A stretch of 64,000 nucleotides of DNA from Acetobacter fallax (lineage in GTDB: Bacteria; Pseudomonadota; Alphaproteobacteria; Acetobacterales; Acetobacteraceae): assembly GCF_011516735.1 (NCBI RefSeq), contig NZ_WOSX01000019.1, forward strand, positions 1 through 64,000, given 5' to 3'. Shown here one piece after another: positions 41,543 to 46,545 of this stretch. The notes under the pieces are model-generated. The model saw nothing but the letters and a program-made list of their open reading frames with translations, did not search any database and had not been told where the DNA came from. Every line of letters starts with the position of its first letter. Positions within the stretch are counted from its first letter, which is position 1. The position numbers and the translations under genes are program-made.

Positions 41543-41971
41543 CTATTCCTGCTTGTGAAAGCGACGGGCGGAAAGATCGTCCAGCGCGTTCTGTTCCTGC
41601 CTGTCCCGCCGCGCCTGTTCTTCCTGAGCGCGGGCCTCAGCCAGCTTCTCCGCGACTTCCAGCGCCGCACGGGCCATGTTCACGCGGGTGCGGGAAGACT
41701 GAACGCCGGTGGCCGCATCCTGCTCAAGCTTTCTGGCCCGTTCGAGCGCGGCACGCCCGATAGGGAGCCAGCGGGAATACGTCTCCACCGTCCGGTCATC
41801 CGCCGAAAGATCGAGAGCGATATCACGCTCATTGACCATATTCTGTTCCGCGGTTTTCACCGCCTCCGCCGCCATCATGGCCTGCGCGAGCGCTTCGGAA
41901 AGCAGGCGTTTCGCTTCGTCGAGTTCCTGACGTCTCAGACGAAGAAGCGAGTCGAGAGGGGAACGAGGCAT
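41543..41971 (-). CDS. fliJ: FliJ-like flagellar export coiled-coil protein
   Basis: 142 aa, almost wholly helical with heptads from 5 to 125 (LDSLLRLRRQELDEAKRLLS; RARKLEQDAATGVQSSRTRV; EEQARRDRQEQNALDDLSAR). Length and position fit FliJ, the stalk of the flagellar export ATPase. It follows fliI by 60 nt on the same strand. Sequence similarity is low, as for all FliJ proteins, so the call rests largely on context. Confidence 0.7.
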   Translation of the reverse strand: MPRSPLDSLLRLRRQELDEAKRLLSEALAQAMMAAEAVKTAEQNMVNERDIALDLSADDRTVETYSRWLPIGRAALERARKLEQDAATGVQSSRTRVNMARAALEVAEKLAEARAQEEQARRDRQEQNALDDLSARRFHKQE

Positions 41972-42031: not shown

Positions 42032-43432
42032 TTATCCGGTGGCTGATGGATCTTCAGGGATCGGTGTCTCATCGAGTGCGTCTCTGAGTGCCGCAAAACT
42101 TTCCGGCAGCCGGGCGCAGTCATGCTTGCCCTGCGACAGGACCGCTTCGATGGCAGGCTGCAACCGGATGGCCTCGTCGACTTTGGGATCAGCGCCGGCG
42201 CGATAAGCGCCGAGGCGGATCATGTCGGCCATATCGGCATACGTGGCGAGAATGGCGCGGGAACGGCGGGTGAGGGCATTTTCATCGGCGGAATTACAGC
42301 CAGGCACGGTGCGTGACAGCGAGCGGAGAACATCAATCGCCGGATACCGTCCTCCTTCCGCGATACGCCGGTCCATCACAACGTGACCATCAAGAATGCC
42401 TCTTACGGCATCGGCGATGGGCTCGTTCTGGTCGTCACCCTCCACCAGTACCGAGAAAAGCGCGGAAATCTGACCAGCCGAACCATCCGGCCTGACAAGA
42501 CCCGGGCCTGCCCGTTCAAGCAGTCGCGGAAGTTCAGCGAACACCGAAGGCGGATAACCCCGCGTGGCAGGCGGTTCGCCCATGGAAAGACCAATTTCGC
42601 GCAGCGCCTGGCAGAAGCGTGTGACACTGTCCATGAGAAGCAGCGCCGATTTGCCCTGGTCACTGAAATATTCGGCCACGGTCAGCGCCGCGTAAGCCGC
42701 TTCCCGTCGCATCAGCGGCGGAGAGTCAGACGTCGCCACCACCACAACGGAACGCGCAAGCCCTTCCGGTCCGAGGTCATCCTCGACAAACTCCCGGACC
42801 TCGCGTCCCCGCTCACCCACCAGCGAGATCACAGCGACATCGCAGGCCGTATTCCGGGCCAGCATCGACATCAGGGTGGATTTCCCTACGCCGGATCCGG
42901 CGAACAGCCCGAGTCTCTGGCCTTCGCGGCAGGTCGTGAAAAGATTCATGGCCCGCACGCCAAGATCAATGCGCGGACCCAGGCGACCGCGCAGGGTCGC
43001 CTCCGGGGGCGACGAGCGGACAGACCGGGTCCTATCGCCCTGCGGCAGCGGCCCTTTCCCATCAATCGGGCGGCCGAGCGGGTCAATGATACGCCCGACC
43101 CATGCATCGGAAACCCGCAGACTACCACCAGGTTTTGGCGCGGAAGGACCAATAAAGAGCGGAAACCGCACCTCGCTGCCGCTGCCGATCCCGTCAAGGC
43201 TGCCAAATGTCATGGCACGGGCAACCGTGCCGGAAAATCCGATGATTTCCGCCGGAACCTCCGTGCCATCCCGTTTCATCAGCGTAATGCGGTCGCCAAC
43301 CGATGCGAGTCCGCCGAGCCCGGAAACCGTCACGGCAAGCCCCGATACACCCGTAATACGTGCAGTCGCGGTCGCGGCGGGAATACACGCACAGGTTGCT
43401 GAAAGCTGTTCCATAAGGTCGAGAGCCATCAC
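42032..43432 (-). CDS. fliI: Flagellar protein export ATPase FliI
   Basis: Hexameric ATPase of the flagellar type III export apparatus. 466 aa. Walker A GSGVGKST at 179-186, the GERGREVREFVEDDLG block and Walker B LLLMDSVTRFCQALREI are typical. The protein begins directly with the N-terminal beta-barrel region (TATARITGVSGLAVTVSGLG). Divergent from ctrA across 138 bp, in which CtrA-like half sites occur. Confidence 0.95.
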   Translation of the reverse strand: MMALDLMEQLSATCACIPAATATARITGVSGLAVTVSGLGGLASVGDRITLMKRDGTEVPAEIIGFSGTVARAMTFGSLDGIGSGSEVRFPLFIGPSAPKPGGSLRVSDAWVGRIIDPLGRPIDGKGPLPQGDRTRSVRSSPPEATLRGRLGPRIDLGVRAMNLFTTCREGQRLGLFAGSGVGKSTLMSMLARNTACDVAVISLVGERGREVREFVEDDLGPEGLARSVVVVATSDSPPLMRREAAYAALTVAEYFSDQGKSALLLMDSVTRFCQALREIGLSMGEPPATRGYPPSVFAELPRLLERAGPGLVRPDGSAGQISALFSVLVEGDDQNEPIADAVRGILDGHVVMDRRIAEGGRYPAIDVLRSLSRTVPGCNSADENALTRRSRAILATYADMADMIRLGAYRAGADPKVDEAIRLQPAIEAVLSQGKHDCARLPESFAALRDALDETPIPEDPSATG

Positions 43433-43570: not shown

Positions 43571-44362
43571 ATGGTCAACAACAAACCGGGGGTTACTCAG
43601 ATGCGTGTTCTGCTCGTCGAAGATGATATGGCAGCGGTGAATGAAATCACCCAGATCATGAAAGGCGCCGGATTTACTGTCGATCACGTTGGCAGTGGCG
43701 AAGAGGCGGTCGAGATGCTCCGCCATTATGATTACGATCTCGCTGTCCTGGAGCTGATGCTTCCGGATCTGGAGGGATACGAGGTGGTCCGCCGCGTCCG
43801 TGCGGCCCGCGTTTCGACACCGATCGTCGTTCTCTCCGGTCTGACCCGCCCGCAGGCCAAGGTGAAGGCATTCTCCGTCGGCGCGGACGATTATCTGACC
43901 AAGCCCTTCGATCCCGAGGAACTGGTGGCGCGCATGCAGGCGATCCTGCGTCGTTCCAAAGGTTTCAGTGAGCCGACATTGCGGGTCGGTCCGCTCGAAC
44001 TGAGCCTCGACAGCCGCGAGGTGACGGTCAGCAACGTCCCCGTTCATCTGACGGGCAAGGAATATGCAATTCTTGAACTGCTCGTGCTGCGCAAGGGGAT
44101 GGTCCTGACCAAGGATGCGTTCCTGAACCATCTATATGGCGGTATGGATGAACCGGAGATGAAGATCATCGACGTTTTCATCTGCAAACTGCGTAAGAAA
44201 CTGCAGGTCGTCGGAGCCGGAAACCTGATCACGACCGTCTGGGGCCGCGGTTACATGCTGCGCGAGCAGATCCAGCGTGCGGATGTGTCTGTCGCTGATG
44301 AGGTCGCGGAAGAGGCTCCGGTCAAAGCTGTCCGGGCCGCTCACTCACAGGTCGCTGCCTGA
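43571..44362 (+). CDS. ctrA: CtrA-type cell-cycle response regulator with Glu at the phosphorylation site
   Basis: OmpR-class DNA-binding regulator, 263 aa from ATG 43571 (AAGGTGG six bases upstream); the homologous start is Met11 at 43601. The receiver keeps the acidic pocket (LLVEDD), the switch Ser (VVLSG) and Lys (YLTKPF). The phosphoacceptor position reads YDYDLAVLELMLPD: Glu instead of the Asp of LLDLNLPD, i.e. residue 51 in Caulobacter numbering (61 here). The DNA-binding half is very close to CtrA: VHLTGKEYAILELLVLRKGM, NHLYGGMDEPEMKIIDVFIC, VWGRGYML. A glutamate there should mimic phosphorylation. Confidence 0.93.
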   Translation: MVNNKPGVTQMRVLLVEDDMAAVNEITQIMKGAGFTVDHVGSGEEAVEMLRHYDYDLAVLELMLPDLEGYEVVRRVRAARVSTPIVVLSGLTRPQAKVKAFSVGADDYLTKPFDPEELVARMQAILRRSKGFSEPTLRVGPLELSLDSREVTVSNVPVHLTGKEYAILELLVLRKGMVLTKDAFLNHLYGGMDEPEMKIIDVFICKLRKKLQVVGAGNLITTVWGRGYMLREQIQRADVSVADEVAEEAPVKAVRAAHSQVAA

Positions 44363-44367
44363 GAGCG

Positions 44368-45183
44368 TCAGAGCGTCTGTTGTTCCGGTCCGTCTGAAGG
44401 CATCGTCACGGTGTGATTCAGCGGGCCGGCCCCCGCTCCAAATCCAGGAGCCGCCACAATGGCAGCTCTGAGATAGAGACGGGCCTCCATCACAGCATCC
44501 CGTAATGGCCGCCCCTGAGCCAGCAGGGTCGCGATCGCGCCGGACAAGGTGCATCCGGTGCCATGCGTATGCCGCGTCTCAATGCGTTCAGCCGTAAAGG
44601 TCTCAACGCTGTCACAGGTAACGAGAACATCAGTCAGGCGCGAGCCCGGCAGATGCCCCCCCTTTAGCAGGACCGCCGGCGCACCGTTCTGATGCAAGGC
44701 TTTCGCCGCCGCGATCATCTCGTCTTCACCGGAAATCCGACTACCCAGCAGGGCCTCCGCTTCAGGCAGATTCGGTGTGAGAAGCGTGCTGACGGGAATT
44801 AATATCTCCGACAGCGCCGCAATCGCGTCCGGTTTCAGAAGAAGCGCCCCGCCTTTCGCGACCATCACCGGATCAAGCACAAACGGTACTTTCCGGTAGC
44901 CGGAAATTTCTTCTGCTACCACCGCGATATTATCCGCGTGCCCAAGCATGCCGGTTTTAAAGGCATCTGTCCCGATGTCTTCAAGAACACACCGGATCTG
45001 GCTGCGCAGAAACTCCGCCGGAATATCCAGCACACCGAACACACCCAGCGTGTTCTGCGCCGTTACCGCAGTGATCGCCGTCGTCGCGAATCCGCCCAGC
45101 ACCGTAATGGTTTTGATGTCAGCCTGAATGCCGGCGCCTCCGCCGGAATCGCTGCCAGCAATGCTGAGCACCCGTCCGCGCAC
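44368..45183 (-). CDS. thiD: Hydroxymethylpyrimidine / phosphomethylpyrimidine kinase
   Basis: Phosphorylates HMP and HMP-P in thiamine synthesis. 271 aa with a GTG start at 45183. Ribokinase-like fold: IAGSDSGGGAGIQADIKT, VLDPVMVAKGG, the ATP-site HTHGTGCTLSGAIATLLA and the central LTPNLPEAEALLG. It starts 3 nt after the glmM stop and ends 5 nt from ctrA (convergent). Co-transcription with glmM is likely. Confidence 0.93.
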   Translation of the reverse strand: MRGRVLSIAGSDSGGGAGIQADIKTITVLGGFATTAITAVTAQNTLGVFGVLDIPAEFLRSQIRCVLEDIGTDAFKTGMLGHADNIAVVAEEISGYRKVPFVLDPVMVAKGGALLLKPDAIAALSEILIPVSTLLTPNLPEAEALLGSRISGEDEMIAAAKALHQNGAPAVLLKGGHLPGSRLTDVLVTCDSVETFTAERIETRHTHGTGCTLSGAIATLLAQGRPLRDAVMEARLYLRAAIVAAPGFGAGAGPLNHTVTMPSDGPEQQTL

Positions 45184-45186
45184 GGA

Positions 45187-46545
45187 TCAGGCCGGCTCGT
45201 GAACAGCACGGATGGCCGCACACATGTCCTCGACAGCATTTTCAACCGTGTCCGGATCTTCGGCTTCAACCATCACGCGCACGAGCGGCTCAGTCCCGCT
45301 CTCCCGCAACACCAGCCGCCCGCGCTTGCCAAGCCGCGCCTCAATTTCCGCGCGGGCGGTCGAAACGGCCGGTACCCGCAGCGGGCTCGGTCCGGAAAAA
45401 CGGATATTCCGGAGTGTCTGCGGATAAGGCGAAAACACGCTGCACACTTCGCTTGCCGGCCGGCCATCTCCGATCAGAACGGCAAGAACCTGCAATGCGG
45501 CGAGCAGACCGTCTCCTGTCGTGGCAAAATCCGACAACACCACATGCCCGGACTGCTCGCCACCAACATTGGCACCGTTTTCACGCATGCGCTCCACAAC
45601 ATAGCGGTCCCCGACGGCGGTCCGCTCCAGCGTGAGGTCAAGTGAGGCCAGAAAGCGCTCAAGCCCCATATTGGACATGACCGTCGTCACAATCGACGAT
45701 GTCGCGAGACGACCGCTCGCCGCCCATGAACGGGCAATCAGGCCGATGATCTGGTCGCCATCAATGAGCTTGCCCGTCTCGTCAGCCAGCAGCATCCGGT
45801 CCGCATCGCCATCAAGAGCAATGCCCAGATGAGCGCCATGCTCCACCACCGCCCGGCAAAGCGCCTCCGGGTGAGTCGAGCCGCAATTCTCATTGATATT
45901 AACGCCATCGGGCTCGCAGCCGAGACGGATGACCTCCGCGCCAAGCTCCCACAACGCCGTCGGCGCAACCCGATAGGCCGCGCCATTTGCGCAGTCGATG
46001 ACAATTTTCAGCCCGTCGAGACGGCACCCGCGCGGAAAGGACGCCTTGGCATGTTCGACATAGCGCCCGGCCGCGTCATTCAGCCGCGTCGCCCGGCCAA
46101 TTTCGGCTGGCGCCGCGAGGCGCCCCGACAGATCGGCCATCATCAGGCCCTCGATCGAGGCTTCTTCCTGATCGGAAAGCTTAAAGCCATCGGGGCCGAA
46201 AAGTTTAATCCCGTTATCGCTGAACGGATTGTGGGACGCTGAAATCATTACGCCGAGATCGGCCCGAAGAGAGCGGGTCAGCATCGCGATCGCAGGCGTC
46301 GGCATGGGGCCGACAAGAGTCACATCCATTCCCGCGGAGAGAAAGCCGGCAACAAGCGCACATTCAATCATGTAGCCGGAGAGGCGTGTGTCCTTGCCAA
46401 CCAGAACCTTGTGCCGGTGATTGCCGCGCATAAAATGGAGACCGGCAGCCTGTCCGAGTTTCTGCGAGACCTCGACCGTCATGGGGTGAGCGTTGGCCGT
46501 CCCGCGTATGCCATCTGTCCCGAAAAAATGCCGTGTCGTGCTCAT
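45187..46545 (-). CDS. glmM: Phosphoglucosamine mutase
   Basis: Converts glucosamine-6-P to glucosamine-1-P for peptidoglycan and LPS. 452 aa. N-terminus [14 protein letters not shown], active serine in [20 protein letters not shown], metal loop [14 protein letters not shown] and phosphate-binding loop [15 protein letters not shown] are all intact. Upstream of thiD with 3 nt between. Confidence 0.97.

Follow-up and report, generated by a model that had tools for sequence, protein, structure and literature searches.

The window (the whole 64,000-nucleotide stretch of Acetobacter fallax contig NZ_WOSX01000019.1 analysed here) carries the only strong match to CtrA in the genome (540.5 bits; next-best match 143.8 bits, 38% identity), flanked by a divergent fliI and a small ORF on one side and by thiD-type kinase and glmM genes on the other (Table 1). 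A similar glmM-thiD-ctrA-fliI order is found in the related genome G022 (gene names assigned by eye). Assignment of the ORF to CtrA in the initial annotation is borne out by NCBIfam model NF045991, whose cut-off of 350 bits is passed at 351.2 bits. Residues are numbered from the usual CtrA start (MRVLL..., ATG at 43601); the ORF start at 43571 adds ten N-terminal amino acids (MVNNKPGVTQ). As this upstream start is preceded by a Shine-Dalgarno-like AAGGTGG, and tblastn matches in A. musti, A. oeni, A. conturbans and A. estunensis cover residues 1-263, the 10-aa extension may represent the true start of the protein.

Table 1 Features of the ctrA locus in the A. fallax window.
Feature	Position	Strand	Basis
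ctrA, 263-aa ORF	43571-44362	+	ORF list; NF045991; sole strong match in genome; usual start 43601
Phosphoacceptor position, GAG = Glu51 (D51E)	43751-43753	+	Sequence; alignment of relatives
Acidic pocket, D8 (43622-43624) and D9 (43625-43627), intact	43622-43627	+	Sequence
Switch Ser79, kept	43835-43837	+	Sequence
Active-site Lys101, kept	43901-43903	+	Sequence
Alpha4-beta5-alpha5 dimer face, residues 87-118 (K87, D96, D97, E107, A110, R111, R118)	43859-43954	+	
Winged-helix DNA-binding domain, residues 128-226	43982-44278	+	
C-terminal Ala-Ala	44354-44359	+	Sequence
fliI, divergent, upstream of ctrA	42032-43432	-	TIGR03498, 597.5 bits (cut-off 587.45)
Small ORF after fliI, probably fliJ	41543-41971	-	Position only; no NCBIfam match
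thiD-type kinase	44368-45183	-	TIGR00097, 312.5 bits
glmM	45187-46545	-	TIGR01455, 611.7 bits

As first described, the codon at phosphoacceptor position 51 specifies Glu (GAG), and the acidic pocket (D8, D9), switch Ser79 and Lys101 are intact. Asp51 and Lys101 are present in all seven of the other OmpR-type regulators of the A. fallax genome that were aligned.

Residue 51 in relatives of A. fallax

An error of sequencing or assembly at one base, which the initial annotation wanted excluded because GAG is one base from an Asp codon, is ruled out by relatives carrying Glu51: among the best 80 of 568 confirmed ctrA loci retained from a scan of named genomes, 29 have Glu51 and 51 have Asp51, so that A. 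fallax is no lone outlier, and Glu is found in the separately sequenced A. musti, A. oeni and further relatives, encoded in 14 near Acetobacter sequences by GAA (nine) or GAG (five). The Glu51 loci among these best 80 are titled Acetobacter, Gluconobacter, Neokomagataea, Brytella and Tanticharoenia, plus two bins labelled only as Proteobacteria (L091 and L112). Glu51 is present in each of the 14 near Acetobacter and 15 Gluconobacter-group sequences (groups assembled knowing this residue), with both synonymous codons represented. A natural D51E change, fixed in near relatives, is supported by these sequences.

Across the genus Acetobacter, a CtrA match at E 1e-40 was obtained in 46 of 49 genomes, with E (20), D (8), T (8), H (5), S (4) or N (1) at position 51; D9 is kept in 16/46 and K101 in 25/46. 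The three genomes with no CtrA match at this threshold are G210, G425 and G117, of which G210 has fliF. Glu51 is also seen in three records not placed in the main relay-less clade described below (L091, L112 and L224, the last from G081), and L091 keeps D8, D9 and K101. L102, whose bin bears the title Asaia bogorensis, differs from the other acetic acid bacteria in having Asp51, and this title is perhaps wrong.

Additional or unusual copies were also observed. The sole second match at E 1e-40 in the A. fallax genome has Asp at the phosphoacceptor position. Second CtrA-like proteins without the phosphoacceptor Asp are encoded at L160, L161, L162, L163, L255 and L256 (G429, G362, G428, G431, G060 and G042), and the two that were scanned have CtrA as their best NCBIfam match (154-162 bits). 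In G362, G428, G402, G416, G060 and G042 the second CtrA-like match shares a contig with fliF, ~30-52 kb away. ctrA is apparently truncated or frameshifted at the receiver in L252 (G032) and L259 (G062), the latter from a genome with ChpT and CckA matches.

Distribution of the CckA-ChpT relay and order of events

The ChpT family (PF10090) is matched in 235 of 397 family genomes (219 over cut-off), with no match in the A. fallax genome or in the 13 other Acetobacter genomes of this draw. Within the relay-less clade, nothing convincing was found in the 28 of 33 genomes covered by the ChpT test: matches in three clade members (G390, G009 and G001) at E 3.7e-4 to 7.6e-4 were counted as noise. The ChpT match of G099 has an E value of only 2.7e-4. 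In four relay-bearing genomes (G205, G231, G112 and G047; loci L263, L264, L265 and L267) the ChpT match lies ~6-7 kb from ctrA, separated from it in the first two by what appears by eye to be a chemotaxis-like cluster.

The curated CckA model NF046026 recognised Caulobacter, and none of 70 genomes searched exceeded its 1000-bit cut-off; a separate CckA profile was therefore made from ten CckA-like kinases, all from relay-bearing genomes, so that a very diverged CckA could escape it. Scores above 500 bits were obtained for 23/40 non-acetic picks (525-889 bits) and 0/30 acetic-type picks (best 372 bits, G025), counts that differ in kind from those of a random sample, since the 70 genomes were picked by hand, mostly one or two per genus, with prior knowledge of many CtrA residues and of the outcome for ChpT. 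By clade, this limit is exceeded in 0/33 relay-less genomes versus 23/37 of the other genomes searched. Thresholds of 500 and 400 bits were chosen once the scores were known, and below 422 bits the scores are not cleanly separated: a further three of the 40 non-acetic genomes score 410-420 bits, in the same range as second-best paralogues, and 14 of the 40 also have no match of at least 400 bits. The best match in the A. fallax genome has E 8.6e-87, and acetic-type genomes reach paralogue-level scores only.

GcrA is present in 67 of the 70 genomes, including all 30 of acetic type (with one odd control match, in Sulfolobus acidocaldarius). Of the three pathway genes that the initial annotation proposed to look for, CckA and ChpT proved informative: as neither was found in the A. 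fallax genome, the suggestion that CtrA is uncoupled from the CckA-ChpT phosphorelay is supported. SciP was dropped as a pathway marker, being uninformative with only two weak, sub-cut-off matches to its Pfam family across the 70 family genomes.

An RpoB tree, midpoint-rooted without an outgroup, was made for 64 of the 70 genomes (G017, G064, G083 and G087 gave no match, and G041 and G057 a partial one). It splits 31/33 with support of 100/99, and the side of 33, the relay-less clade, comprises the 30 acetic-type genomes together with G001, G056 and G071. Three genomes on the tree (G062, G095 and G102) are without a CtrA residue, and 61 were scored, with the relay coded as ChpT (E <1e-5) or CckA (at least 400 bits) and an intact site as D/E8, D/E9, D51, S/T79 and K101. 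Neither relay nor intact site is present in 34 genomes, both are present in 24, three have the intact site only (G013, G039, which is 87% complete, and G099) and none combines a changed site with a relay; ChpT or CckA thus accompanies 24 of 27 intact sites, and all 34 changed-site genomes are coded as lacking the relay. G013 (L246) is a single-contig genome with no ChpT or CckA match in which CtrA keeps D8, D9, D51 and K101, either a recent loss or a reversion.

G056 and G071, which adjoin the acetic-type genomes, have Gly8, Asp51 and no relay. As these two genomes are relay-less yet retain Asp51, relay loss probably preceded D51E, provided that the midpoint root is right, since in a tree without an outgroup both the clade and the order of events depend on that root. 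Outside the 33, the relay is also missing from G081 (H8, E51) and G053 (T8, R101), in line with parallel events. Independent losses thus number about three (main clade, G081 and G053), too few for an independent-pairs sign test to reach significance.

Receiver, dimer face and possible control of CtrA without the relay

Comparisons between the 33 relay-less and 24 relay-bearing genomes leave out G039 and G099 (doubtful relay) and G081 and G053 (separate losses). Residue 51 is most often Glu in the relay-less clade (22/33); Glu is also constant, with both codons, in the near-Acetobacter and Gluconobacter-group sequences, and six of the 22 Glu51 genomes, including that of the window, retain D8. 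The identity of D51E as a phosphomimetic allele of Caulobacter, put forward in the initial annotation, agrees with passages of PMC12186491 and PMC4241560, and the change is described in the same way for Rhodobacter in a passage of PMC6363796. A natural phosphomimetic, with Glu51 locking CtrA in an active state and kept by selection for that, is nevertheless unlikely, and comparison with relatives does not support the idea that Glu was kept across the clade for this reason. By parsimony on the RpoB tree, position 51 has changed eight times among the 33 relay-less genomes (percentile 0.49 of receiver positions), close to the receiver median of nine (D8, 13 changes; K101, nine); D, T, H, S or N occupies this position in 26/46 Acetobacter genomes; and D8 is gone from 16 of the 22 Glu51 genomes. 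Because of this near-median rate, the variety of residues within the genus and the Asp51 of relay-less G056 and G071, D51E following relay loss is likelier than D51E causing the uncoupling.

Glu is not a known phosphoacceptor in receivers, and changes in the relay-less clade extend to other parts of the phosphorylation site: D8 is retained in eight of the 33 genomes, D9 in 27, D51 in seven, S79 in 29 and K101 in 22, and P55 is eroded alongside D8 and K101. Continued phosphorylation of CtrA through another histidine phosphotransferase or kinase is very improbable in view of this erosion and of the lack of a detectable CckA orthologue as start of the pathway, although the window keeps D8, D9, S79 and K101, the A. 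fallax genome has 21 HATPase_c matches (some of them not kinases), and passages of PMC2877005 propose substitutes for ChpT and report CckA as present in a group of Rhodospirillales.

The receiver as a whole is also more variable in the relay-less clade (mean pairwise identity 0.49, versus 0.73 in relay-bearing genomes), with a smaller difference in the DNA-binding domain (0.71 versus 0.80). Together with the three of 49 Acetobacter genomes that have no CtrA match at E 1e-40 and the apparently truncated ctrA of G032, this could indicate a receiver that is merely decaying in a CtrA on its way to loss. Such decay is more improbable still, given that the DNA-binding half is conserved, the dimer-face residues are nearly invariant and receiver dN/dS is lower in relay-less groups than in relay-bearing ones. 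For the dimer face we assumed a residue set (K87, D96, D97, E107, A110, R111 and R118) from the OmpR/PhoB literature, within which D96, D97, A110, R111 and R118 are retained in 33/33 relay-less genomes, E107 in 32 and K87 in 28; changes within the clade number none for the first five, one for E107 and two for K87. Against a background of 48 receiver positions that are near-invariant in the 24 relay-bearing genomes, retention is above chance for the dimer face, at 0.99 for six positions (permutation p 0.0005) and 0.97 (p 0.003) when the test is repeated with K87, which is part of the face and had been omitted from the first set, versus 0.50 for four active-site positions, below chance (p 0.023). 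A passage of PMC2586830 describes a common, conserved dimer face in the OmpR/PhoB family.

Rough pairwise NG86 estimates from pairs with dS 0.1-1.5 (58/91, 69/105, 61/276, 133/136 and 37/66 pairs) gave receiver dN/dS of 0.059 for near Acetobacter, 0.046 for the Gluconobacter group and 0.075 for eroded Acetobacter, versus 0.181 and 0.137 for two relay-bearing sets. Values of 0.05-0.08 in all three relay-less groups point to a receiver under purifying selection. The ratio of receiver to DNA-binding dN is 1.77, 1.69 and 1.31 in the same three groups and 1.56 and 1.22 in the relay-bearing sets, suggesting from the 1.7-1.8 of the Glu51 groups versus 1.2-1.6 of the relay-bearing sets that the receiver is, compared with the remainder of the protein, slightly less constrained in the former.

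In the window, the C-terminal Ala-Ala, which we take to resemble the ClpXP degron of Caulobacter CtrA, is kept and proteolysis is therefore a possible remaining control; this ending is kept in 9/33 relay-less proteins (including that of the window) versus 16/23 relay-bearing proteins (G045 left out). Upstream of ctrA in the window no significant TTAA-N7-TTAA site was found: the best one has one mismatch and is matched by 22% of shuffles. In most Gluconobacter loci (L048-L054, L056, L059-L061, L064 and L070) a similar site precedes ctrA at a constant distance of ~128 bases; it is a perfect match in L056 and L061, has one mismatch elsewhere and possibly reflects autoregulation. Full FliF is absent from 19 of 46 CtrA-bearing genomes tested, and since these 19 keep ctrA, its function in them extends beyond the flagellum.

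Proposed loss of the phosphorylation switch and comparison with known systems

From these comparisons of sequence we propose, with a probability of roughly 0.7, that CtrA became a phosphorylation-independent regulator, its receiver still serving dimerisation, after loss of CckA and ChpT. Loss of the relay would predate or coincide with the emergence of the acetic acid bacteria, and CtrA would dimerise and bind DNA without phosphorylation, by analogy with the atypical OmpR/PhoB regulators ChxR and HP1043. Its activity would be set by its amount (through transcription, and perhaps ClpXP acting via Ala-Ala) or by an unknown partner, and Glu51 in the window would be one of the various residues tolerated at a phosphorylation site that is no longer in use. 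As to cause, relay loss with subsequent loss of the phosphorylation site is a more likely reading than fixation of a phosphomimetic. In the lineage of the window Glu51 may in addition favour the active shape, and the constitutive CtrA activity supposed in the initial annotation is possible there. A broader version, in which CtrA receives no phosphate input in the whole group and is permanently dimeric, Glu51 stabilises the active conformation in Acetobacter and Gluconobacter, and control has passed to CtrA level (synthesis and proteolysis) or to a new partner of a remodelled receiver, is tentative, with chances somewhat short of even.

The alphaproteobacterial cell cycle is regarded as centred on CtrA phosphorylation by CckA-ChpT, and a clade that keeps CtrA and GcrA and shows neither relay enzyme would be a natural experiment on CtrA without its switch, in which the succession of steps (loss of the relay, change of the acidic pocket, D51E and then further erosion) could be followed. 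Relay loss would also offer a simple explanation for ChpT and CckA being reported missing in many Rhodospirillales.

Absence of ChpT and CckA in this taxonomic order has already been reported (passages of PMC2877005 and PMC8116508). Brilli 2010 describes a group of Rhodospirillales with relay members missing to varying degrees, in which cckA was present and chpT escaped detection, and suggests that a different phosphotransferase acts in alphaproteobacteria with CtrA and CckA but no ChpT (passages of PMC2877005). For Rhodospirillales genomes, Tomasch 2021 reports chpT, cckA and divL in 27-36% and ctrA, gcrA and ccrM in 72-82%, adding that genes may simply be too diverged to detect (passages of PMC8116508). 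The genomes analysed here resemble these Rhodospirillales in that relay genes are missing and ctrA and gcrA often remain, but differ from those of Brilli 2010 with respect to CckA, for which the acetic-type genomes gave paralogue-level scores only. The CtrA receiver is unmentioned in these passages of the two papers, and no report of a change in it was found in the CtrA literature covered, which lies mostly outside subscription journals.

CtrA of the window is orthologous to that of Caulobacter and other Alphaproteobacteria by the NCBIfam model and by similarity over its whole length, and shares the C-terminal Ala-Ala, but is without Asp51 and, with no CckA or ChpT found, without a known phosphate input. 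Its residue change is identical to that of the engineered Caulobacter ctrA D51E allele, which acts in a cell where the relay is present; in A. fallax no relay was detected, and relatives show erosion of further residues of the site. ChxR of Chlamydia and HP1043 of Helicobacter are phosphorylation-independent dimers formed through alpha4-beta5-alpha5 (passage of PMC3960148). The acetic-type CtrA presumably has an origin independent of these two, is the alphaproteobacterial cell-cycle regulator, with relay-bearing relatives for comparison, and is predicted to dimerise. The characteristics of such atypical regulators are nevertheless recognisable, with phosphorylation residues missing (D51 in the window; D8, P55 and K101 changed in many relatives) and the alpha4-beta5-alpha5 face kept across the 33 relay-less genomes, so that, as in ChxR and HP1043, the active site is changed and the dimer face and DNA-binding domain are kept.
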